A stretch of DNA of 64,000 nt. Source: Bryum argenteum (Eukaryota > Streptophyta > Bryopsida > Bryales > Bryaceae). This document shows positions 12,775 through 62,313 of this stretch, piece after piece. The position numbers were made by a program, and so were the translations under genes. Under the pieces are notes generated by a model that saw only the letters and a program-made list of their open reading frames with translations, ran no database searches and was not told the origin of the DNA. The stretch is from the NCBI GenBank assembly GCA_037043015.1, contig CM073321.1, positions 27,393,010 through 27,457,009 on the forward strand, read 5' to 3'. The first letter of the stretch is position 1, and the number at the start of each line of letters is the position of its first letter.

Positions 12775-14121
12775 ATGGCGGATCCTACAATCGCCGAGAT
12801 AGTCGGCGTTTGGTTTCTTTTGACGGTCTTTTTCACAGTTCCTCGACCCTTGAGGGCCAAGAAGCGTTTTAGACCCGTTCGATTTCGCCCGTTTCGTATT
12901 ACCCCTAGGCCGATTCCATTCACTGACGAGCGTTCCCTCTTACAGCGAGATTTACTTGCATTGACCTTGTTACTTCCCAGTGAGATAGAGGAGCTCCAGA
13001 GGATGTGGTGGAAGATTCCTAGACAGAGTATACATTATGATATCATAGAGAGGGATGTGTGGTTTACATCGCCAGAGTTTCTCGATAGACAATACTTATC
13101 TTCTTACCGGATGACTTTTTTTGCTTTCGAGCAGCTCATGGCTCTTATCACCCCCTTCTTACGTTTTGCACCTTTCTATGTTCGCTGTCTGTTATCCCCT
13201 CGTACCATTCTGAAGATTGTTTTGTATAAATTGGCACACGGGATTAGTCCAGAGCGTATGGTAGATTTGTACAACGTAGGCGCTTCCACCATCAGGAAGT
13301 ACACCGTCATTGTCTGTGATATTCTCTCTGATAGAGAGAAATTGTTCGGTTTATACGTCCAGATTCCGAGTGGTGCACGCTTAGCTTCTACTATTGCTAG
13401 GTTTGCGGAGATGACTGACATTTCTCAGATTTGTGGGGTTATTGATGGGACCCACATCCAACTAGCTGCTAAACCCCCTCTCAGACTCACACTCGCTGCC
13501 GCTGATTTCTACAACCGTAAGAGATTTTTGAGTGTGGTTGTGCAGGGCGTATGTGATGCAGATAAGATTTTCTGGGATAAGTCTTGTACGCAGCCTGGAG
13601 GAGTACATGATGCATGAGCGTTTAGAGCTTCTGCTCTAGGAAAGATGCTAGCTGCTGGATCTATTCTGAAGGAGCCCGTTGTTCGTATCGGGGACGTGGA
13701 GGTTGCCCCGTTTCTCTTGGGTGATTCGGCTTACCCTTTGCGCCCGTACCTGCTGAAAAACTTCAAGATGAGGACTCCGCAAACAATAGACGAAAATAGG
13801 TTTGATTCTTCCATGAATGTAGCTAGGGTTTTGATTGAGAATTGTTTTGGTTCTCTCAAGAACCGTTGGAGGATTTTGCGTCTGTTCACTCCTATGATAG
13901 ATAGGGCAGGATCATATATTTTAGCTTGTTGTGCATTCCACAGTTTTTGCCAGCTACAGGGCATGCCCGAACCAGTTGATGGATTTCCTCGTGATGTAGA
14001 GCGTAACCACATACCTTGCCATCAACCTGTGATTGACGTTGATGCTGCTAGGGTAGCTGGTGGGCGTGTTAGAGATGCGATTTTTGCATCTTGGTTAGCT
14101 AGTCATCCACGTCAGGAGTGA
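12775..14121 (+). pseudogene. PIF/Harbinger transposase with one in-frame stop
   Basis: There are 448 codons in a single frame from the ATG at 12775. The first catalytic Asp is in CGVIDGTHIQ, the second in LLGDSAYPLRP, and the Glu in VLIENCFGSLKNRWR: the full DDE set of the HARBI1-like family. The only visible lesion is TGA at 13615-13617, directly after GGVHDA. Family members usually have Arg there (HDAR), so one CGA-to-TGA change explains it. No intron is needed. The stop falls before the second and third catalytic residues, so any product would be inactive. Confidence 0.88.
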
Positions 14122-45993: not shown

Positions 45994-46696
45994 ATGGATG
46001 GACTCCAAGGTGAGATCAAGGAAATCCAGTGTGCTCTCCTTTTATACAAGAACAGAGGAGCAGGAAAGCCAGCATCTCAAAGCTCGGACTCTTGGGCCAT
46101 CTCTAATTCGAAGTTTGTTAGTCTTGCATTGTTAGTGGATCAAATGGCGGGGCATTCAGCCGATTTCGATCCATTGTATTTGTATTCCTGCATTGCTTGT
46201 GGAGAGAGAAAGATCTGTGCTTGTTTGATGGAGCATCCTTGTCTCGGTGTTGGAATTTGCATTTCGTGCAAACTTTTGTTGGACAACGTTGTATTCACGA
46301 AGAACGCCCAGTACGATGATGAGCAATGCAATTGGTGTGGGGGAGTTGAGTTTGTGATCCCGTATGATTATTGTAACAAGGTGTGGTGTGCAGCGTGTAT
46401 AGCACGGAATAAAGGAGACAGTACCCGGTCAGGTCGTTATTGTATAACAGCCTGCATCGCATCACAGAGAGTGAGTGCTGCGGCGATATTATTGAACATA
46501 ATCGATTCGAACACTTTTTATCCAACTTACATTCGGCTTATGTTCCTCATGTTTCTCCACGATGGAGGGAGCCCACCCCAAAGCGTGCTTGTATGCATAT
46601 TCCTGCAAAAACACCACAAGTTGCTAGTTGCTATGAAGAGAAGCCAATCGCTCCTGAAGTTGAAGTGAATCATAATGTGAATCATATTTATCACTG
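45994..46696 (+). CDS. ADD-like (ATRX/DNMT3-type) zinc-finger gene, copy 1
   Basis: The Cys pattern is that of an ADD domain: a GATA-like part (CIACGERKIC, then EHPCLGVGICISC) followed by a PHD-like part (CNWCGG, then DYCNKVWCAACIARNKGD). One PHD-like Cys position is Tyr (PYDYC), so zinc binding may be weakened. The gene appears as one open exon. After about 46420 the frame probably shifts or splices to another frame that stays open to 46696 (ESECCGDIIEHNRFEHF). Domains of this type read unmodified histone H3 tails. This copy lacks the intron that copy 2 has at the matching place. It could be a fragment; the start at 45994 is a guess. Confidence 0.5.
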
Positions 46697-47925
46697 AAGG
46701 CGACCTCTGTTTTTGTTGATGTGGCATTTGAGAGAGAAAAGTGTTACCCTAGCTGCAGGTTCAAATCGATTCCTTCCATCTAAGAATATATTTGCGATGT
46801 TGGAGACACTACCATTTGTACCAAACTGGTTTTAGAGCTGCATTTCAGAGAGCATTTGCTTCTGGAGGCAAAATCAAATTTTCGGATAAGCGTGTCAGGA
46901 CTTGAGATGGAAATGAAAGAGTCATCACATGTACCTTTAGTACAGAGGTGGATGCAACCCGGGCGCTGGATGCAGCCTGAAATTTTTTTGTGTGTATGAG
47001 AGCTAACGCAAGTGACCTTGCATGTCCGTACATGACTCAGGCCCAGCATGCGGTCAGTTCCGGCATTCGGTCAGCCTTAGCACGCGCCTACCCGGCCACT
47101 CTTAGCACGTGCCAAACGTCATAAGAGTTTGGCAATTCAACAAATGCCTCCACTTCATAAGTCCCGACATTCATAAGTAGTGTTCCCCAAGTCTCGGCAA
47201 TGTGGCCGTCCGAGAACCCGACAGTCCCGCAAAGTCCCGGCAGTGGCCGAGAAAAGGGCCGCGCATCCACCGCCGGCACCCTCAAAATGTCTCTTGCAAC
47301 GACAACCTCTCCTTGACAGTCCCGCAAAGTCCCGGTACTGGCCGTGAAAGGGGCCGAGGATCCACCGCCGACACACTCCAAATGTCCCCTGCAACGGCGA
47401 CCTCTTCCCAGAACCCGTAAAGTCCCAAGAGTGGCCGTGAAAGGGGTCGAGCATCCAGTGCCGGCACCCTCTAAATCCAAATGTCTCCTGCAATCAGCCA
47501 AGGCACCCGCCGCCAGTGATCGTGGGCCGGCAAAGTGCGGGGAGCACCCAAATGGGGCACCCACCGGCGCCGGCTCACCATCTGTTGCACCGGCGGACCC
47601 ATAGCTTGCCCCGGCGAACCCCATGGTGGCCACGGCTGGGACTGTTGGAAGGGCCGGTGCACGACGCGATGGACGTAGCGCGTGTTGGTGGGGCCGGCTT
47701 ACAACGCGGTGGACCTAGCGCGTGTTGGTGGGGCCGGCTCACAAGGCTTTGGACCTAGCACACTTGAAAATTGTAGAAATCTTCGTGGGAGATCATGATC
47801 TTCTGACAAATAGATATTGTCTGACGAAGGAGTGGTTGAGAGATCATATTACATAAGTATATAGAGTGGCAACGGAATGTTCATTTTTGTATGTTGTTGC
47901 TGCGAGAACGCTGGGTTTCTTTAGT
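46697..47925. other. Spacer between the ADD-like copies, with tandem repeats
   Basis: 46697-47200 has no clear gene. 47217-47770 is repetitive (see the separate entry). About 47770-47925 leads into the second ADD-like gene. Confidence 0.4.
47217..47770 (+). repeat. GC-rich tandem repeats, units of about 95 bp and 40 bp
   Basis: Three diverged units of about 95 bp (CAGTCCCGCAAAGTCCCGG, then GGCCGTGAAAGGGG) lie at about 47217-47500. Two to three units of about 40 bp (GACCTAGCGCGTGTTGGTGG) lie at 47666-47760. Confidence 0.8.
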
Positions 47926-48328
47926 ATGGCTTCGGTCACTCTCAGTAGTCCAACCTACGATTGTTCCGCTTGTGGGGATACTAGGTTTCATATTTCCTTT
48001 AAGCAGCACCCCCGTCTCGCAGTTGGTCTCTGTTGTAAATGCCGTGCAGACTATGCAAAGAAGAAGTGGACAAAGGTAGGAATGTTACAAAATGGAATGT
48101 GTTGTAGACGTCCTGTTGTTTGATGTTACAGTTTCCGTTGAGATCAATGAACGCTCACAATTGGTCTGATTTGTGTTCCACTTGTGTTTGGCAGAATGAG
48201 GATGGAAAGGAAGAGTTCTGCAGTTGGTGCTTCGACCATCACTAGAATATGATCAGCTGTGGAACGTGCCCGAAGGTGTGGTGTATTGGTTGTGTATCGA
48301 ACAACAAAGGTGACGAGTACATACTAGA

Positions 48329-51300
48329 TGTCGGACCCCGTTTTTTCGATTTTTGGCCATTATGTTTTAATGCGCAGTAAGAATAAGTATAGTGTTTAGA
48401 ATCCGACCTATGTATTTGCTAAGCCGTATAGTATAAGGCAATTACGTTTTTACGAATAAAGGAATTAGTTAAAATCTAGTTTGTGTTAAGTAGGACGGAT
48501 TTGCCAATCCGCACTCTCATCCCCGTCACGGCTAGGAGCGTCTTTGTCGGAAGAGGACGGATTAGGAGTTATGATGGTAGGTGAAGGACGGAGCGGCGAA
48601 GAATTTAATAAAGGCGAGAAATCTAGAAGGCGACTCCGTACGGTGAGGATAATGATGGCGGCGGACCATGTCATGATGGTCGGACTTAACTCCGCCCCCT
48701 CGATATAAGGCAACCCGTCCGCCCCTTGTCACCACCGCCTCCTCGTTCGCGCCCCTTGTCGTCTTGCGCTCCTGTCCTCCGTCTTTCTGCTTTCCGTCCT
48801 TAGCTCCGATCCGGCCCATTGGCCGATCTCAGCCCGGCGACTCTCTATTTCCTTGCGCACTTCTTTCCGATGGCAGGAACGGCGTCCACTTCCGCTCAGG
48901 AGCAAGAGGAGCTGAAGATTTCCATCAAGCTCGTGTCGCCGTGTATTCCGATCGAGGAGGATGAGAAGAAGTCCTTGACGGAAGACCTCGAGAGGATGGG
49001 GTTAGCCGGCCTGCTGGATACGCCCTGGGGTTTGCGCGACGCGGAGATGGTGCGCGAGATCAAGGTCGGAGCGCCAAACCAGTTCGAGGGGACGGTTAGA
49101 GGGAAGCCGGCTTCCTGGACGGCCGACCACTGGAGAGCTGTTTACGGCCTGACCGTAAACAACGGAGTAGGGTTATGCGGCCGGAAACACAAGTGGGCGA
49201 AGAAGGCGTTCCACGGGGATCCGCACAAGAACAATGGCTACTCGATCGAGGATTGCAGGAATCGGAGGGAGCGCGCCGTCATCAAGTTCTTGGCGCCGAT
49301 TATTCACGGAGAGAAGCCGCACCGGATCACCGTACGGCTAGCCAACACCGTCCTGGGCTCCTTGCGCGGCGAACGGGAGGCGGACTGGGGGATGATCATC
49401 CGCGACTTGGTCGCCCGGCTTGCGGAGAACGTAGGTAAAACCCGTCCTAGCCCTATTACTCCTTTCCTTTACCACCTGTACAAGAAGGAGGAGGTGCTGA
49501 CGGAGGAGGAGGAGTCAAATTATGAGATCGCGGTATCGTCGCAAAACAACGGTGTGTTCGAGTGGGAGGAGAGTACGGATAGCAAGGCCGTGTACTCGGA
49601 AGAGGAGGAGGACGAGGTCGGATCAGACGACGGGGACGTTCCACCCGACACACCAGAGGAGCCGGCTCCGGAGGCAACCCCACCGCGGACGCGTCTAGAG
49701 GTAATCATCCTTCCGTCCCCGTCCCCTCCCACGAACCCGACCGAGGCCGGAACTCAGACTGAGGGAGGCCAGCCTTCGAGGCCGGTGGATGAAGGGGAAG
49801 TTACGGCCGATTGGGAGAACCCCATGAATCCGAACGACCCCCGACTTCCCCCACCTCTCAGTCCGTCCGCCAATCACCCGGATCCCATGAGGCGAGCATG
49901 GCACCACTTCACGGAGGCCAGGTGCCAGTACTTCTTCTACCAAGGACTGCTGGCAAAGCTATGCCAAGAATTTGGAGTGAAGACGTTGCTGGAGGTCAAG
50001 GCGAAGTGGGAATCCAAGCCGGACGCGGAGCAGTTTCGACAAATGGAGAAGCAAGTGACCAAGCTGATCCTGGAGAATAGACGTCTTTGTGAGACGGTCA
50101 GAAGAAGGGAGGAGGAACTCCTGGTCGGAAGGCAGGCCGTAATCACGGCAAACGAGCAGGTCGTAAAGCTCGTGGAAATCTGCGAGATTCCGGCCGAGGT
50201 ACTGCAGAGGGCGAACCTGTTCGAGGCCGGAATCCTGGGTCGGAGGTTTTCAAAGCGGAGACGTTCAAGAAGTTCCTCTTGGCGGCGAAGACGTACGCCA
50301 CGAAGGTAGAGAAGAGCAACGCCGAGGTCAAGGTGCTGCTCGACGCCGTCCGGGAGCAGATGAAGGAGGTAGTGATGCCGGCCTTCACTTCTACTCCGGC
50401 CAAGACCCCGCGGCCGGATACTGGCGAGGACGGATCTTCGGGCCCTCGATCCGACCGACACGAAGGGCAAGGCGAAGGTGAAGACGGAGCTGGACGCACC
50501 CGCCCAGCCAGACTCGCCCGGCCAAGAACACGCGCACGCGAAGAGGAAGCTCACGGCCGAAGAATACGAGAAGTCCCGGGCGCGAAGCTTCACGACATCG
50601 GCCTCGAGCATTCGAAGAGGAAGAGTTGAAGAGCGGGGACGAGACTAACTCCGGCCGAGGACGAGTACGTGATAACTAGTACGGGCAAGAGAGTGAAGCG
50701 GGGACGTATCGCAGCCGACGCCATCAAGCGGCGAAGCACGGAGTTAGTTCGCGAAGGAAGAGGTAGGACGTCTTAGAGGACGGTTGTCGCAGAACGGTTG
50801 GGGGTTAGGAGGCCGGATTGGTATCCGTCCTAGCCCGATATAGTATTTTCTTTTTGGGGAATGCGTGCCGCTTTTTGAGGAGTAGGCCTGATAGGCCGGC
50901 GCCGCAATCCAGTTAGGGATCTAAGTCGTTGACTTAGAAGTACTTATAGGTGGGAGTTTTGTCCACCAAAACATTCCTTGCTTGAGTGTTAATCGAACCT
51001 TCTTATGCGCATATTCGGTGTGATCATTTCCCTGTCTCCTTTTCAGTTGAGTGCTTGGAAAGCCGGATCTACTTTTGTGTGTTATGAGTTGGGAGTTAGG
51101 AATCCGGATTCTTTGCTAGATCGTTTCTCTGGAGTTGAAGTCGGGTTGGGCGTATTCTTGAGTGCCTTGTGTCTTGGACTAGTCTAGGTGTCTGAGAGAG
51201 GGAAACTGCTGTGGTAAACACTTACGGTCTGGGAGGGTCTAGGAGTATAGTGTGTGAGGACGGATTCCAATCCGGCCTCCACCGCCTGACTTGGGTTCCT

Positions 51301-51769
51301 CCTGTGGTCTCGCAGGACGGATCGGATCAAGCGTAGTACGTGACCAGAATACGTGTAGACGTCTTCTAGCCGGATTCGGAGCTCTTGGAGTCTGTCATTG
51401 TAGTAAGGGTGATAGGGTAACCAGGACGGCCTGCGTGACCTGCTAGTTCGGACGGATAGGACGGATTAGTTGTGAGGACGTAATGTGTGCCTTAGTGTGT
51501 GTGTGTGTAGAGTCTAAGTGTGGAAGTTTCCGCCACGATAAACATAAGGGAAAGAGTCTTTGTGCATCCCCTCTTGCAAAGGGATACCCTTGCCCCGCAA
51601 GGCTAAAACATGAGTTGGGACTAGGAAACGTTTGTGGGTTTGGTTGTCTTAGCACTACTTGTCTTGGTCACTTCACAGAATCCCTGGAACGATACACGAG
51701 TCACCTGAACACGGGTTTTACACCAATAAACGTGTAAGGGAAGATAAAGTAAATACATGGCATCCGACA
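48329..51769. mobile_element. 3441-bp insertion of unclear class (5-bp duplication, TG...CA ends)
   Basis: CTAGA flanks both ends (48324-48328 and 51770-51774). The termini are TGTCGGA and TCCGACA, a 7-bp inverted pair of TG...CA form. I see no long direct repeats inside, and no primer site or polymerase gene. A TATA-like CGATATAAGG at about 48698-48707 precedes the gene, and AATAAA lies at 51725-51730, close to the right end. GACGGATT-type words recur in both flanking non-coding parts. A very long solo LTR carrying a gene fits the ends and the 5-bp duplication. A DNA transposon with short termini is the alternative. Confidence 0.82.
48870..50638 (+). CDS. Plant retroelement-type protein gene carried by the insertion
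   Basis: From the ATG at 48870 the frame is open for over 450 codons. A conserved-looking globular part (about residues 60-210, with VRGKPASWTADHWRAVYGL and PFLYHLYKKEEVLTEEEES) is followed by an acidic and Pro-rich linker and a C-terminal coiled coil. Near 50240 the coding signal moves to another frame (EVFKAETFKKFLLAAKTYAT). Near 50460 it moves again (KRKLTAEEYEKSRARSF) and runs to about 50650, so two frameshifts are likely. The first part recalls proteins found in plant retroelements (gag or 'putative plant transposon protein' type). I am not certain of that and assign no activity. Confidence 0.5.
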
Positions 51770-51954
51770 CTAGAGATCCAACGCTCTGCAGAGATTTGGA
51801 AGTGCTTCAGTTGTGATAACAACACGTACACCAAATTGACCAAAACATGGGAAGAGTTCCGTGACACAGCAAAGAACTACGACCCTCCACTATCACCATC
51901 CATTTGGGAAGATGCCGTAGAGGAATGTAGTGAAGATAATAGTATCCGTTGGTG

Positions 51955-52017
51955 AGAACAATTTCAATGTGAATGTAGAGGTGTGACGTATGTCAGTCAA
52001 CATAAAATAGTATGGAT

Positions 52018-52064
<47 letters not shown>

Positions 52065-52281
52065 GGTATAAGCTGACTTGATATCAAAAGAGGCGCAACA
52101 TTTTACTTTTAATGTGGAATGTTGTTTAAACCACAATATCAACTTAAAGCTCTCTACGTTGTCGTACATAATCTCTAGAAGAGCATGAAGCCTGTGGAAC
52201 ACATTGGACAATTCCACCTAGGAGAAGTCGCTTGATCTCGTTGAAGCTAAGAGTTGGAGCATGGACAAACAGATCTTTTTC
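51955..52281. repeat. Spacer with a TA microsatellite
   Basis: An alternating TA run of about 42 bp lies at 52019-52061. The rest is non-coding. Confidence 0.8.
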
Positions 52282-55005
52282 TCAATCAAGGCCATAAACC
52301 ACACGGTAAATGTAGTACATGTGCTTGCAATTAGCATAGGATCCACGCAACTTGAACTTGACGTACATGCTTGTAAAGCTAGGGCAAGTACTTTCAGGAA
52401 ATGTACTAATGCTGACCTTGTAGTTTTGAGCATCCTTTTCGGGACCCTTCTTGGAAATGAAATCGATGACGGCCCCGAGTCCCGGGCTTGGCACCAACAT
52501 AACCCGTGTTAGCTGGACATTGAGTAGCATTGCCGATTCCCACTTGTTTAATTGCTCAGTTGCCACCCTCTTTATAGCGTTGCGACAACAGGGAGGAGAG
52601 CTTCGTATGTTGAGGAACTTGTCGGGTTTCTCCGGTGCAGGAATGCTTGCAATACTCGCGGCAATCGCCAAGTCATCGCCAAATTGCCTCTCGCTTGGCA
52701 TAGGAGGTATCTGTTGCAGCTAGAATCTTGCCTCCTCCAATGTGAAAATCTTGCGCGTTGTGAGGTTAGTTCCCTTTAACACCGGCCAGAGACGTAGAAC
52801 CTTGGGCAAATCAGGGAACTACCTCCGCCGCTTCCCCGCTACGCACCCTGCGACATTGTGTGCATAGAAATAGAAGAACTGTGGATAATTCTTGTTCTTA
52901 GAGCGAACATGCTTCACGCCGTGGATGCAGGAGCAGGATCATCATTTTGAAGCCCACGATTGCACTTGCGGTTGGAATCGGGAATTATGGCGGTACAAAT
53001 CCGCGAATCCACTGAATGCATGCGTCAATTTAAGATAACTGAACAACAAACCCGGGACCATATTTCTAAGTGATGTATGAAATGACTGAATATTCACAAT
53101 TAAATGATGAACCGCGATAAATCGTACCATGTTCATGTATCCGCCCCACTGCCAATATCGAAAGTGCCACCATGTCAACCAATTGTCCAGTGCAGGGATT
53201 TCAGAGTCACTTGCTGCTCCACTCATAGACCACCATGAACGAATCCCCATGCATCGAGATTCCGCTTCATTAGTTGTGCGCGCGTCCTTGTACTGGGTGC
53301 AGATTCGCTTGTGCTCGTCTCGTAGTTCAAGCTTAATGTAAGAGTTTGTTGCTCTCTGCACGCAAGTAGTCCAATGTAGTAGACATGAGCATTCCTTATT
53401 TGGCATTGGAACGGATTTATCACTTGAATTGTAGATCTCTCGGACAGCATTCCAGTTAGCCTGCGCGCTGTCAGCCATGAATCCCGCAAAATTGATGTTG
53501 TGAACCCCGTGCTCAGCCACTACGGCATCGATCCCTCTCCACAGGTATGATTGAGCATCTTAGGTTTCGGACATCATGTCGCAAATTGCAATCGTCATCA
53601 CCTCGCGTTACGCTAAGTCGTAAACGTGGCAGACAAAAGTTGTGTACCATTTGATGCGCTTGACGTGATCAAACATCACCCATGCGTATTCTAGATCCCC
53701 TTTAGGTTGCATTCTCTAGACGAGATCAACGCCAGATCCGGGTCCAGTCTCCGACATTTTGAAGACAAACAGCTTGTCGGTCTTACTACCTTGGCGAGGA
53801 AATCTGTTTTCTTGCACATAGGGCCACCGAGAGGTGCCTCTCAATTCGCACACTCCATCGATTATGCCCTTCCTTCCCATCCTTCTGAAGTGAGACACAT
53901 TGTGTCGAATTGTGGAACTCGTGAAGCTCTCAAACTTAAACATAACATCCCGCATTTCAGATTCTGTCAAAAATGACTGAGACTCGCCATCCTTCTTCAA
54001 TAGGTAATCCCCAAGGAACTCAGAGCTTGCAGACAGTGCAATTGCAGAGGGTGAGGCCTTTGGTGATCTTTCAAGCGCACCCTTTAACAAATGGTCGCCG
54101 AGTTCTAAGGACTTCCTACAGGTACCTTTTCCTACCGGGTGAGTGTGCTATCCAATGTGGATACATGCTCTGGTTGTATTTGTATCACCTGTGACATAAT
54201 ACATGATAGCAGAGCATTGCAAAATACAAGTCGGTGGTGCCTTGCATATAGCGCACATCAGTGTCAACTCAGAGTCTGGGCATTTTCCAAGGAACGGCTT
54301 CTTTGCAAAGCCATCACACAACTTCTCATTAATCTCGTCCGCACGCCCCAGCCTGCGAAGAAATCTGCACTCTGGATTCTCACATTGCAAATGACCAGCA
54401 CAAGAAGCTGTGCGGAATGTAGGACCATGGTCATTTTGAATGTTACGAGTCTGCAAATGGCACCATGTGTGACCGTCGTATTGCTTGTCCATCCCCGACA
54501 GTCTCTTCGCGGAGTTTGTCTTGGTGTCCATAGGTGGGGGCGGAAACTCAAAAATTACATTGCTGTCATACTGGGCCGGCAAGAACAAAACAAATGAGTA
54601 CTGATACATACTTTGATCTAAGCTACTGAGTTCGCTCTTGGCCCCCTTCGTGAACTGCAGATTGCGAATGCATGTGACGGCACTGACAGAATCTGTGTTA
54701 AATGGTGGACGCGGAGGCTTCCGGCTTAAACTGTCGTACTTAGAAAGAGACGGTGTTACCGACGTAGTCCGATTAGTCTCCAATAGCTCAGAATCCTGGG
54801 AAGCTGGTACGTCGGTCTCCCTTGTAGCCTCAAGATTACTTTCATCTAATTTGATAATAGGAGTCATCGTTGCACATGACGGGACGACCTCACACTCCGA
54901 CACGGACATTGCAACTACCGGATGAGATTGGATGACAGCACCCTGAACACGATATTGCGACGATTGTAATATCCAAAATACATCTTTCTTAACAAAGGGC
55001 TCCAT
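52282..55005 (-). pseudogene. MULE transposase with GCM1/WRKY-like finger and SWIM-like motif, eight internal stops
   Basis: One frame can be followed from the ATG at 55005 to 52282 (about 907 codons) without a single shift. It is interrupted by TAG 54148-54150, TAG 53716-53718, TAA 53608-53610, TAA 53560-53562, TGA 52942-52944, TGA 52939-52941, TAG 52819-52821 and TAG 52720-52722. Order of parts: a low-complexity N-terminus; a GCM1/WRKY-type finger (DGHTWCHLQTRN, CAGHLQCENPECRFLRR); a conserved ACIHIG...HPVGKGTCRK stretch; a catalytic core with candidate Asp in VMFDHVKRIK and FMADSAQANWN and Glu in NEAESRCMGIRSW; and a SWIM-like CPSF...NCKHMYYIY. MULE transposases with WRKY-GCM1 fingers are known in plants. 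Terminal repeats were not found. Confidence 0.75.
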
Positions 55006-55011
55006 GTGCAC

Positions 55012-57828
55012 ACTCTAAAACAACTTGCCGACATCATCCATGACTTCTTCCTCTAGGAAGATTGAATCTAATTCCAAATTGAACTTTGCAAACAACATTC
55101 TAGCAGTCACAACAATGCAACCATCAGATTGCGGTAGTATACGTAAAGGGGCTCGCCAGCATCTACTCGAATTGTGGCCATTCGTGACTTAAATACTAGA
55201 CGCAAAGAAGCCAAGCAATAAGCACTACTGAATCAGGTACGCTGTTCATTCGAAACAGGTTAAAATTTTGAACAATAGTACGTAGCCGACGAGGATAATA
55301 AGTGCTTAAAGTGGTAGTACTATGAACGATAAAAATGGAGGCTCCACTGACATTGATGGCCTAGGAAGCATACTCTATAGACGTCATGCTGATGATCTGA
55401 CAGATCAGACAATTAAGCATGGGCCGCCAAAGGTATTAAAGGGGCTATGGCAAAAAAGAGGATGTGGGATACTATGGCTTAATAAATCCCATCGGCAGTT
55501 TCATTTCATATCTTGTCATTGATGGCCCTATATGCAGAGTATAAAATATTGAGGCCTTACGGACAAGGACGGCTACTTAGAAGTGTTAATGTGAGTTGGG
55601 TAAAAGAGGTGGTGGTTTGTTATAAAGACGCCTCGTAACTAATAAGAAAACTGCGCCGTTTTAAAAAAAAACGTCTATGGAATTAAAGGCTTCAGTCCAC
55701 GTAGTGTCAGAAATTCTTATTGGGCATCTCCTAGAGTTAAGAATCCGAGCATCTGCCGGGCTTTGCACATTAGGAGGTATGTCTTAGTGATGCCGCAAAA
55801 TATAGCTGAGTATGATCAAAGTAACAAAAGTGCTAGAAGTAAGAAGCGGAAAAAGAGGGTACCTGGGGGACGCTTGTATTTCTCCAAAAAGCAATTGAGT
55901 GCAAGGCAAATGAAGAACAAAGACACTCGAGGCAGCTCAGTCGTTCTAGGCGATACAGCGAAAGCTTTACTTCCGATTTTGGAGAACATTGGATCGGATT
56001 CAGTGATGGAACACGCTACGAAGGGGCGCGCTTGAACCACCTACAGGAGGCGCAAGAATCAGACATGACTGCTAATATTGTCTAATATATGGGAGTAAAT
56101 GTTAGTAAAGATAGACTAATTTGATAAATGATATGCAGGATAGTGAGGTAGACCTTGAAAACAGTCTCATCATGGAGAATCTGAAAGATGAAACTAGTAA
56201 CAACGAGGACAATGAAGAAGGTAAGTAGCATCCAAAGCCTTCTCAGTCAGGAGGAAGTAGGCCATAAATAAACTTGTAGATTTCTTGTTAGTCCTGGATG
56301 ATTGCTCGTAGAAAAATTCAATATCGATATACGTGTTTACCTTGGACAACATCATCACTCGGCACGGAGCACGGAGGTGGCTTGCATTTTGAAGCAAAGA
56401 CCTATCCGCTCAAGGCGGCCCACTTTCATCGGCATCACTCGAGCGAACGGCATCGCAGTCGTCGTGTTCACCAGCGGCGGCGCACGAGAGAGCGCAAAAT
56501 ACTCGCGGCAGCCCTTCGCACGTCCCCTTGGCACAACCTCGATTGGTTCCTCTCACAAGAGGACCTCACACTGTCCGAACAACCTCGATTGGTTCCTTGT
56601 ACAACAGGACCTCACAGTGTCGGCAGAACAAGACCTCGCAGTGTCGGCACACTAGAACTTTGAGAGTGGAAATCGGCTGTGGGGTTTAGGGTTTCTCGGT
56701 CAAAAGCGGCGGCGCAGTCGCAGAGGAGGTTTACCTTCAAATGGCATTCATCCTCATCGCGATCGCAGCCGGAGAAATCGTGATCATCGTCGCCTGCTGC
56801 ACATTGTGATAATCGTCGCCATCATGATCATCGTTGCCGCAACTCGCCGTTCTGGTGCCATGGTCATCATCTCGCCAAAGTCCGCCTGACAACTCGCCGT
56901 CGCCAACTGCACATCGTGATCAACTCGCCATTCGGGGCAAACTCTAGGTTGGGGAGCACTTCGCAGAGGTTTGAAACGCATTCTTGAAATCAATACGTAT
57001 ATTGATTTTGAACTTGGGCTCTTAGATTTTACTCTGATGTATTTTGTTCTCGTGGCTCTGCAGGTTTCGAGCGAGAATTGACTGTCGCAAATTAGTAGTC
57101 GAGTGACCTAGCATGTATTTATGGGCAACTTAAAAGGTACCGTTGACTTCTATGCAGGTCAAGCTATGACGCAGGGGTCGCCGCTCGATGAAGACCCTGC
57201 CACGTCGAAGGATCCATTTCTTGGATCGCCTGCTCTATCGGGAGAGGACGCCGAAGACATTGCCTCACCTGGAGCAACTACACCTATCCCACGTAGAGTC
57301 ATTTGTATTTACGACACGCCATATACTACTCCTGGTAAGAACATTGAATTCCATCATGTCTTTTTACTCTTGTTGTAAATTTAGATGGCTGGGTATGTTG
57401 CCGGCACTCGGGTCTGCGAGGGCCAGTAGTACTCGTCGGATGGAAGCCCGAGTCCTTCGGGACACTATCAAGAGTTGGCAGAGGATATGTTGGCACTTGC
57501 AACGGTGAAGAACGCAGCGAAATGCAATACGTAGTATGAACTGCAGAATTTAGCAAATCATCGAGGGCATTTTGAGGGCAAGTTGATCCCGCCGCTTGTC
57601 CGAGGGCATTTTTGCTTGAGCGTCACCGCGCCCCCCACCACAACTCCCAATTGCAAAGTTTTGACTCGAACAAGCCGTCCCGGCAATCGGGCTGCGTGAA
57701 ATAGAGGGAATTTGGCTAGCTGCATGTTCCCGGTACTACTCCGGTACTCTATAGAGGTCTAGCTGCTAGAATGGAGGATTCTCAAGTCATATAAATACTC
57801 CAAGCTGAGGAGATGTTACCTAATTGAT
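55012..57828. other. Mostly non-coding, two unassigned open stretches
   Basis: An open stretch at about 55763-56035 is Lys/Arg-rich (SKKRKKRVPGGRLYFSKKQL). 57121-57333 is open from an ATG and ends at a plausible donor (GGTAAGAAC). I recognise neither. Otherwise no gene is seen. Confidence 0.35.
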
Positions 57829-60961: not shown

Positions 60962-61104
60962 AGGCTACGTAATGGGATCCAGTCAAGAGTAGGATGGCAT
61001 GAGAGGCCGGAAGCTCGTGATGTGGCCCGAAGACACGTAGTTAAGCCTTTGTGGCCGGGGGTGCCCCTCATGAGGAGTCTTCTTAAAGTCCATCGGAGGA
61101 GCCG

Positions 61105-62313
61105 GTGGAAATAAAAGGGGACCAAGGGGACCAAAGAGAAGTTGCTACTTGTGAGGAGGACACTCACCATGAGGAGGAAGAAAATCCTCTAAGTCCCGTT
61201 CTCGGGAAACACGGCCACAAGCGGAAGGCACGAGATGAATGGTTCAATGAGCTTGTCAAAACTCTTCAAGTCTTGGAAGAAGAGATTAAGGAGCTCAAGG
61301 GAAGGGCATCATGCCCTTCTTCCCGCAAGTTGTGCAAGACCAACTTGCCCTCTTCCTTCACGGGATTGGGCAAGGTAAACAAGGTCAAGGACTTCATTGT
61401 GGAACTTGAGCTCAACTTTGAGGCCCAAAGAGCTCGTGAAGAGGACAAGATCAACATTACCGTGACCTTCTTGAAAGAGCATGCTTTTTTGTGGTGGACT
61501 TGTTACCGGGATGAGAACGCGGCAGTGGTGAGCAACTTGACTTGGACCGGTTTCAAGGGGATCCTAAGTGATCGCTTCACCCCAGAGTACCAAGAGATTC
61601 GGGATGGCATGGCCCTTGTGCAATTGAAGCAAACGGGCACTCTTCATGCCTATGTGAAGGATTTCAATGCACATTTGAATGTGCTCCCGAAGTTAGATGA
61701 ATTGGCCAAATAGGTCATTTTCTTCAATGGACTCTAAGTTGGGTGGAACGGGCATTATTCAAGATGTCGAGATTGCCGGAGACTTGTGCCGAATTGCTCA
61801 AGTTGGCAAAAGGGATTGGTGATGATGAAGGTCACCAAAAGGCCTCTAAAGAGGAGGCCTCAACCGGAAAGCAAGGCAAATTACTATCCAAGAGCCAACA
61901 TAAGAAAAATGGTTGGCAAAAGCTTTAGGGTGGTGAGAGTAGGCCTTCCAAGGATGGGAAGGACAAGTTTGCCAAGGACAAGCCCAAAGTGGGGACAAGT
62001 CCATAATAAAAAGAGACAAGTTACATTACTTGTTTGAATTGTGGTGAAGAGGGCCACATGGCAATGCATTGCTCCTAACCAAAGGGGCAACCGACTCCTT
62101 CATAAGTCCCGAAGCATCGAAGAGGATGGACTTGCATTTGAGTAAGCAAGCTCATCCAAGTGAGGTTTGCAAAGAGGCAAGCCTCACCAAACGTTTCTTG
62201 TAGCAACGGAAGTAGAAGTGAAGTGCCAAAACTTCACCCTTGTGGAAAACTTCAAGGTTTGTGAAATGGATGGGATTGGTCTCATCTTATGTAAGACTTC
62301 CTTTGATACCTTT
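61105..62313 (+). pseudogene. Gag and protease remnant of the LTR retrotransposon
   Basis: The open frame 61105-61713 has the gag core (VKDFIVELELNFEAQRAREE, then LKEHAFLWWTCYRD and WTGFKGILSDRFTPEYQ). After a TAG at about 61711 it continues in broken form. A CCHC zinc knuckle, CLNCGEEGHMAMHC, is near 62030-62078. Further on, VEVKCQNFTLVENFKVCEMD, then GIGLILCKTSF, matches the aspartic-protease region of Ty3/gypsy-type polyproteins, with the usual LG-NTFL altered. Sequence identity to the element stops near 62313, so reverse transcriptase, RNase H and integrase are absent. Confidence 0.8.

Follow-up and report, generated by a model that had tools for sequence, protein, structure and literature searches.

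What kind of element has split an ADD-like exon of the moss Bryum argenteum, and does it carry a gene of its own? The locus lies in a 64,000-nucleotide stretch of contig CM073321.1 (assembly GCA_037043015.1, positions 27,393,010 to 27,457,009 of the forward strand), hereafter the window. An earlier note had reported a 3,441-bp insert in this exon, a CTAGA copy on either side and a reading frame kept across the gap, and we confirmed these points. The insert occupies 48329-51769 (+), between target-site duplications (TSDs) CTAGA at 48324-48328 and 51770-51774, and splits the second ADD exon; the phase of the left frame (...SNNKGDEYIL) is also that of the right frame (EIQRSAEIWKCFSC). It begins TGTCGGACCCCG and finishes GGCATCCGACA (TGTCGGA...TCCGACA). 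Judged by its anatomy and relatives, the insert is a solo long terminal repeat (LTR) of a ~12.9-kb Ty3/gypsy retrotransposon. We consider it highly probable that the insert has this origin and that the LTR of its family encodes, in a long open reading frame (ORF), an accessory protein under selection.

Paralogues without the insert, which the earlier note had proposed to look for, do exist. At all 12 loci that we fetched, the alignment passes through the join with no gap (92-95% identity), and the loci continue with the sequence found after 51774, so the case that the note named as refuting does not arise; at the insertion target they differ from the window by one or few bases. The reading of the exon as ADD also proved right: the joined exons 1 and 2 of an intact paralogue match the ATRX ADD domain (phmmer, E = 2.1e-10, residues 12-116), and the match spans the insertion point. 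The further claim that the site pins the pre-insertion gene exactly stands for the frame, but the gene belongs to a dispersed family and has a stop codon of its own. This in-frame TAG at 48243-48245, which the note had overlooked, is Y in the 12 fetched paralogues, the only ones checked. Even without the insertion, the host copy would therefore not count as intact.

Copies and target-site duplications of the insert

We searched for copies of the insert and found 29 matches beside the window's own that extend from query position ≤6 to position ≥3446, with 89-96% identity (within the best 40 of 667 candidates). Among the first 21 copies, 19 are flanked by perfect 5-bp TSDs, whose sequence differs between copies, and one has a duplication agreeing at 4/5 positions; the remaining copy, L026, lacks a TSD, as its LTR is followed by an internal region. 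Perfect TSDs were also present in nine of a further 10 copies, with no match in the tenth. The total is 28 of the 31 copies with both ends examined (the window and 27 others), and the length is fixed at 5 bp, as expected of a Ty3/gypsy element.

No direct terminal repeats were found inside the 3,441-bp insert. The window copy and the 27 other copies with perfect TSDs have the three marks of a solo LTR: a complete LTR, no internal sequence and a TSD on both sides. Internal sequence of the same family stands beside the LTR only in L026, among the 20 copies with 3-kb flanks. The flank of copy L028 has a single weak pol match (65%), which belongs to another element.

Full-length elements of the family

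In L026, the same LTR runs directly into TGTAAAATTTTGGCGCC, with a sequence resembling a primer-binding site (PBS; TTTTGGCGCCGCTGCCGG) after the LTR, and then into gag, reverse transcriptase (RT), RNase H (RH) and an integrase (IN) zinc finger. Pfam identifies Retrotrans_gag (3e-9), zf-CCHC (3e-11), RT (7e-22), RNase H (5e-37) and the integrase zinc finger (2e-16); a protease-like stretch was recognized by eye only. With the protease placed by eye, the order gag, RT, RH, IN across L026 and L041 is that of Ty3/gypsy elements. We considered the LTR piece downstream in L041 as the partner of the L026 LTR and rejected it (79% similarity, no TSD).

Upstream of other matches to the leader, 10 of 10 loci end in this LTR (93-97%; in one case over 108 of 180 bases only). 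The distance from the internal start to the next LTR start is 5.98-6.01 kb at four loci, and LTR ends are spaced 9,412-9,435 bp apart in five cases among the matches listed. This spacing gives an LTR length of 3.44 kb, and the LTR at C1:2724278-2727716 measures 3,439 bp. The full element is thus laid out as a 3.44-kb LTR, ~6 kb of PBS-gag-RT-RH-IN and a second 3.44-kb LTR. Pattern searches of the whole genome counted 324 LTR 3' ends, of which the best 100 were listed with positions, and 43 PBS/leader sites; controls gave 0. On C1, an LTR-int-LTR-int-LTR array (int, internal region) advances in 9.4-kb steps (LTR ends at C1:17479083, 17488518 and 17497938) and has ORF sites in all three LTRs, as would be expected of a product of reciprocal LTR recombination.

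LTR ends at 17.2-kb steps form another tandem array at C3:685331-719711.

The LTR ORF and its distribution

LTR positions ~539-2440 hold an ORF of 633-636 amino acids (aa; 627 in one copy), which is intact in 13 of the 21 copies (627-636 aa). In the window copy it runs from 48870 to 50309 (+), 479 aa from the ATG; the final ~23 aa are in another frame than that of intact copies, and the homologous frame would end near 50766. An upstream 115-aa frame in the LTR gives no codon-phase signal.

To place the ORF in full elements, we used two 26-mers from it, which have 161 and 220 sites genome-wide (control, 0), and took positions from the best 100 of each. These were compared with 52 distinct internal starts, merged from all 43 PBS sites and 38 of 41 leader-match rows (without two rows that begin late in the leader and one that is a second piece). 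An ORF site lies at the expected spacing in both LTRs for at least 10 of the 52 starts, and in at least one LTR for at least 19 (at least 22 with looser spacing). Same-strand ORF pairs at full-element spacing emerged only by these pattern searches; there were none among the ORF-ranked matches listed.

The distribution of the ORF has two further features. C1, with 44.1 of 258.8 Mb, or 17% of the genome, has 38 of the 92 exact matches to the first 26-mer and, among the matches listed, 56 of 89 tblastn loci. It looks rich in this LTR family and is possibly a special (e.g., sex) chromosome. Four inverted ORF pairs, 5.8-9.5 kb apart, were also seen among the matches listed: L028 (C6:11792494-11801946), C1:20409661/20417501, C1:35606132/35615491 and C16:7159/18013.

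Selection on the LTR ORF

Across all 21 copies, divergence at the three codon positions of the ORF is 0.038/0.023/0.121, and a consistent third-position excess is confined to the ORF. For 78 pairs of the 13 intact copies, the NG86 method gave a nonsynonymous divergence (dN) of 0.027, a synonymous divergence (dS) of 0.206 and a pooled dN/dS of 0.146. The alignment of intact ORFs comprised 12 of these 13 copies (without L014) and the window.

We then separated changes common to two or more copies from private ones in 15 of the 21 copies; the window, L014, L015, L020, L024 and L025 were left out for indels relative to the frame of L011. The ratio of nonsynonymous to synonymous changes per site (pN/pS) is 0.088 for shared and 0.333 for private changes, with nonsynonymous/synonymous counts of 35/121 and 112/102, respectively (Fisher p = 5e-9). 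A low shared ratio together with a higher private one indicates purifying selection on the ORF while the element replicated, and relaxed decay after insertion. In keeping with this, the closest pairs have the highest ratios (0.33 vs 0.13-0.15). Since selection acted strongly on the ORF in the replicating element, these data suggest that the family makes an LTR-encoded accessory protein.

Divergence in the non-coding LTR is 0.043-0.057, less than half of that at ORF third positions (0.121), so these parts seem to be constrained too.

Transcription signals and a repeated motif in the LTR

The ORF is framed by putative transcription signals. A TATA-box-like CGATATAAGGC at 48701-48711 (+) stands ~165 nt before the ORF ATG and is present in 21 of 21 copies (15 exact, six one-base variants). 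AATAAA at 51725-51730 (+), 44 nt before the LTR end, keeps this position in 20 of 21 copies. A single repeat may thus contain promoter, gene and poly(A) signal.

The LTR also contains eight sites of the motif GGACGGAT, at 48493, 48555, 50428, 50823 (-), 51258, 51315, 51450 and 51459 (span 48493-51466). These are eight of the nine sites in the window, where 1.57 would be expected over the whole 64 kb, for a motif first chosen by eye in this LTR. Every one of the 21 LTR copies has five to eight such sites, most of them beyond the ORF, and no site was found in the 12 host loci (39.7 kb).

Protein searches with 13 members at E ≤ 10 returned no convincing Pfam family for the ORF product. The weak matches were NEMO (0.011; 10 members), Csm1_N (0.24; nine members), Herpes_DNAp_acc (0.0051; two members) and DUF6505 (one member). 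A profile search of the PDB gave no match at E ≤ 1, and a single-sequence AlphaFold model of residues 1-461 of the window ORF reached a confidence score (pLDDT) of 42. As a guess, the product is most likely a regulatory or nucleic-acid-binding factor whose target is the DNA or RNA of the element itself. That it may act on the GGACGGAT sites is a reasonable idea, with binding itself a guess.

Origin of the insert and alternative explanations

Taken together, these observations fit a Ty3/gypsy element with unusually long 3.44-kb LTRs that would have entered the PHD half of the ADD exon in sense orientation, duplicating CTAGA. Recombination between its LTRs, which we infer from the observed anatomy and full-length relatives, would then have excised the internal region of ~6 kb, so that a single LTR remained. 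This LTR would be a complete transcription unit, with TATA box, a 633-636-aa ORF and AATAAA as signals read from the sequence. Selection on the ORF is shown by the divergence data, and the encoded protein presumably aids the family's own propagation. The ORF would be doubled in each full element and persist in solo LTRs, decaying there.

Several points weigh against this interpretation. No ORF site was found around 30 of the 52 internal starts, among the matches listed; in the LTRs there, the ORF may be diverged, truncated or absent. LTRs bearing an internal region are likewise rare among the ORF-ranked matches listed. Paired LTRs are known from the spacing of matches, and L026 is damaged on its 3' side, where the integrase is truncated and the downstream LTR piece is 79% similar without a matching TSD. 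The pattern counts suggest ~4-6 unpaired LTRs per internal region (taking 43 sites or 52 distinct starts, with two LTRs assumed for each). An apparent ratio of 30:1, from the 30 of 31 examined copies without a following internal region, was rejected as a genome ratio because the copies were ranked by similarity to a solo copy. Finally, the absence of stops in the ORF is weak evidence, as ~1.3 stops per lineage are expected under neutrality and 28% of lineages would escape by chance, compared with 13 of 21 copies intact.

Could the 3.44-kb unit instead be a self-contained mobile element, either a non-autonomous DNA transposon or a single-gene retroelement, with its adjacency to gag-pol secondary? 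Its short inverted ends TGTCGGA/TCCGACA, its TSDs, its one ORF and the mostly single state of the examined copies would suit such a unit. However, the same LTR end stands directly before the PBS at 10 of 10 leader loci and in L026, an LTR start follows the internal start after 5.98-6.01 kb at four loci, ORF sites flank at least 10 internal regions at the expected spacing, and the LTR-int-LTR-int-LTR array exists. TG...CA ends with a 5-bp TSD fit an integrase, and the ORF matches no transposase family; we regard a self-contained element as highly improbable. We give even less credence to the ORF being a chance frame of a G+C-rich LTR with no protein product. The GC content of 0.60 in the ORF vs 0.49 outside favours long chance frames, and the product has neither a family or structure match nor a good single-sequence fold; against this stand the dN/dS of 0.146, the third-position excess restricted to the ORF and the low shared pN/pS, provided that the alignment is sound.

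A different question is whether a working host ADD gene was lost through the insertion, with consequences for the organism. The insert does split the PHD finger, and the ADD exon is constrained among 12 paralogues (pN/pS 0.30 over 66 pairs). Yet 40 further matches at 80-92% identity elsewhere make this a redundant copy of a transposon-like repeat, and the TAG at 48243 also breaks the window copy, with no order of the two events implied. We therefore consider such a loss very unlikely. A bolder version of the accessory-protein reading is that an essential accessory gene moved into the LTR, that its protein acts on the GGACGGAT sites of LTR and leader, for example against silencing, and that solo LTRs serve as helpers of the family. 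We hold this to be unlikely as a whole. Were it true, each full element would have two copies of the gene and each LTR-LTR deletion would free a unit of promoter, ORF and poly(A) signal.

Comparison with known elements

The common view takes LTRs for control regions without coding capacity and regards solo LTRs as inert remnants. With a 633-aa gene at a pN/pS of ~0.09 in the LTR, solo LTRs would be gene copies; annotation of the internal region alone would miss a protein, and the recombination that removes the element would leave the gene in place. As it contains hundreds of LTRs together with full elements and a tandem array, this one genome provides a testable setting.

The PBS TGGCGCCGCTGCCGGGGA looks like a tRNA-Asp type and is no more than suggestive of an OTA non-chromovirus (Tat/Athila). 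In the part of Neumann et al. 2019 (PMC6317226) available to us, plant Ty3/gypsy OTA non-chromoviruses (Athila, Tat/Ogre/Retand) have LTRs of up to ~5 kb, commonly extra ORFs, and a PBS that is not tRNA-Met; the extra ORFs are placed on the 5' or 3' side of the polyprotein region, with none stated there to lie in the LTR. The Bryum family resembles these elements in its Ty3 gag-pol, large LTRs, extra ORF and apparent PBS type, but differs from them as described in having that ORF inside the LTR. The rice elements Retrosat2, RIRE3 and RIRE8 have LTRs over 3.2 kb and an ORF0 of unknown origin (Gao et al. 2012, PMC3485330, as far as its accessible text goes). The moss family likewise has LTRs over 3.2 kb, an extra ORF and many solo LTRs. 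In that account, ORF0 precedes the gag-pol ORF and changes rapidly from species to species, whereas the moss ORF is within the LTR and strongly conserved inside one genome. Retrosat2 is given there as 429 solo and 162 complete copies, or 2.6 solo LTRs per complete element, compared to our ~4-6 unpaired LTRs per internal region.

For the possible action of the protein, the Arabidopsis DNA transposon VANDAL21 offers a parallel. According to the available portion of PMC5735166, VANC proteins of Arabidopsis transposons (VANC21 in VANDAL21) relieve silencing and bind short motifs, of which the non-coding DNA of their own element has many copies. The moss family similarly combines an element-encoded accessory protein with a short motif repeated in its own non-coding DNA; motif binding is proven for VANDAL21, unlike the guessed binding to GGACGGAT here. 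A moss retrotransposon paper (PMC7466625) mentions solo LTRs and, in its accessible part, no ORF in them. None of the titles and abstract openings in the literature found describes a coding LTR in plants, the full texts being mostly outside this survey and some containing the words "within the LTR".

Among retroviruses, mouse mammary tumour virus (MMTV) provides a precedent, as its superantigen is a protein encoded in the LTR. The gene is likewise within the LTR, but in a vertebrate retrovirus, and a relation in sequence is not expected.

The host ADD gene and its dispersed family

The host exon pair is, by homology, a true ADD domain composed of a GATA-like finger and a PHD finger, although the Pfam ADD_ATRX match is under its cut-off. 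As read from the letters, the exon with the GATA-like finger (YDCSACG...HPRLAVGLCCKC) spans 47926-48075 (+) and is followed by a predicted GT...AG intron at 48076-48194 (+), placed by eye. The PHD-finger exon comprises a left part at 48195-48328 (+), which contains the TAG, and a right part at 51775-51955 (+), up to the stop TGA. A second ADD-like exon ~2 kb upstream (45994-46668, +) was identified by eye and has no Pfam match of its own; similar pairs ~2 kb apart occur in paralogues at several genomic places.

A six-frame search with the joined exon returned the 40 rows at 80-92% identity, covering 92-103 of 103 query residues (best 150 of 231 candidates scored), and each row is a single match running across the insertion site. 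By these matches, the host gene is a member of a dispersed repeat family. Similarity among paralogues extends up to the whole 3.3 kb fetched and includes a convergent frame, represented in the window by an ORF at 52282-52719 (-) homologous to a 425-aa frame of paralogue L034, whose C-terminus has a sub-threshold resemblance to a SWIM finger (E = 0.49). For a Mutator-like (MULE) transposon, which would have a MULE transposase with a SWIM finger, this weak match is the only hint. The unit thus pairs an ATRX-like ADD-domain gene with a SWIM-like frame of convergent orientation, and at least 40 copies of it are scattered over the genome (window ~45994-53020, L029-L040). No transposase was identified in it, in a search that did not extend to terminal inverted repeats; the gene is probably transposon-borne. 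A transposon with a histone-reader domain would already be out of the ordinary. At ~53,024, the window's unit parts abruptly from the 12 fetched paralogues, as at another insertion or rearrangement.

Other features of the window

Three features lie apart from the insert and its host. A DDE_Tnp_4 transposase frame at 12775-13617 (+) scores 24.5 bits vs the Pfam cut-off of 24.8 bits. A match to 5.8S rRNA at 57470-57625 (+; 80.7 bits) appears degenerate by eye and is probably a dispersed fragment of ribosomal DNA. A Ty3 capsid-like gag frame at 61087-61713 (+; Ty3_capsid, 3.6e-12) apparently belongs to a different element.

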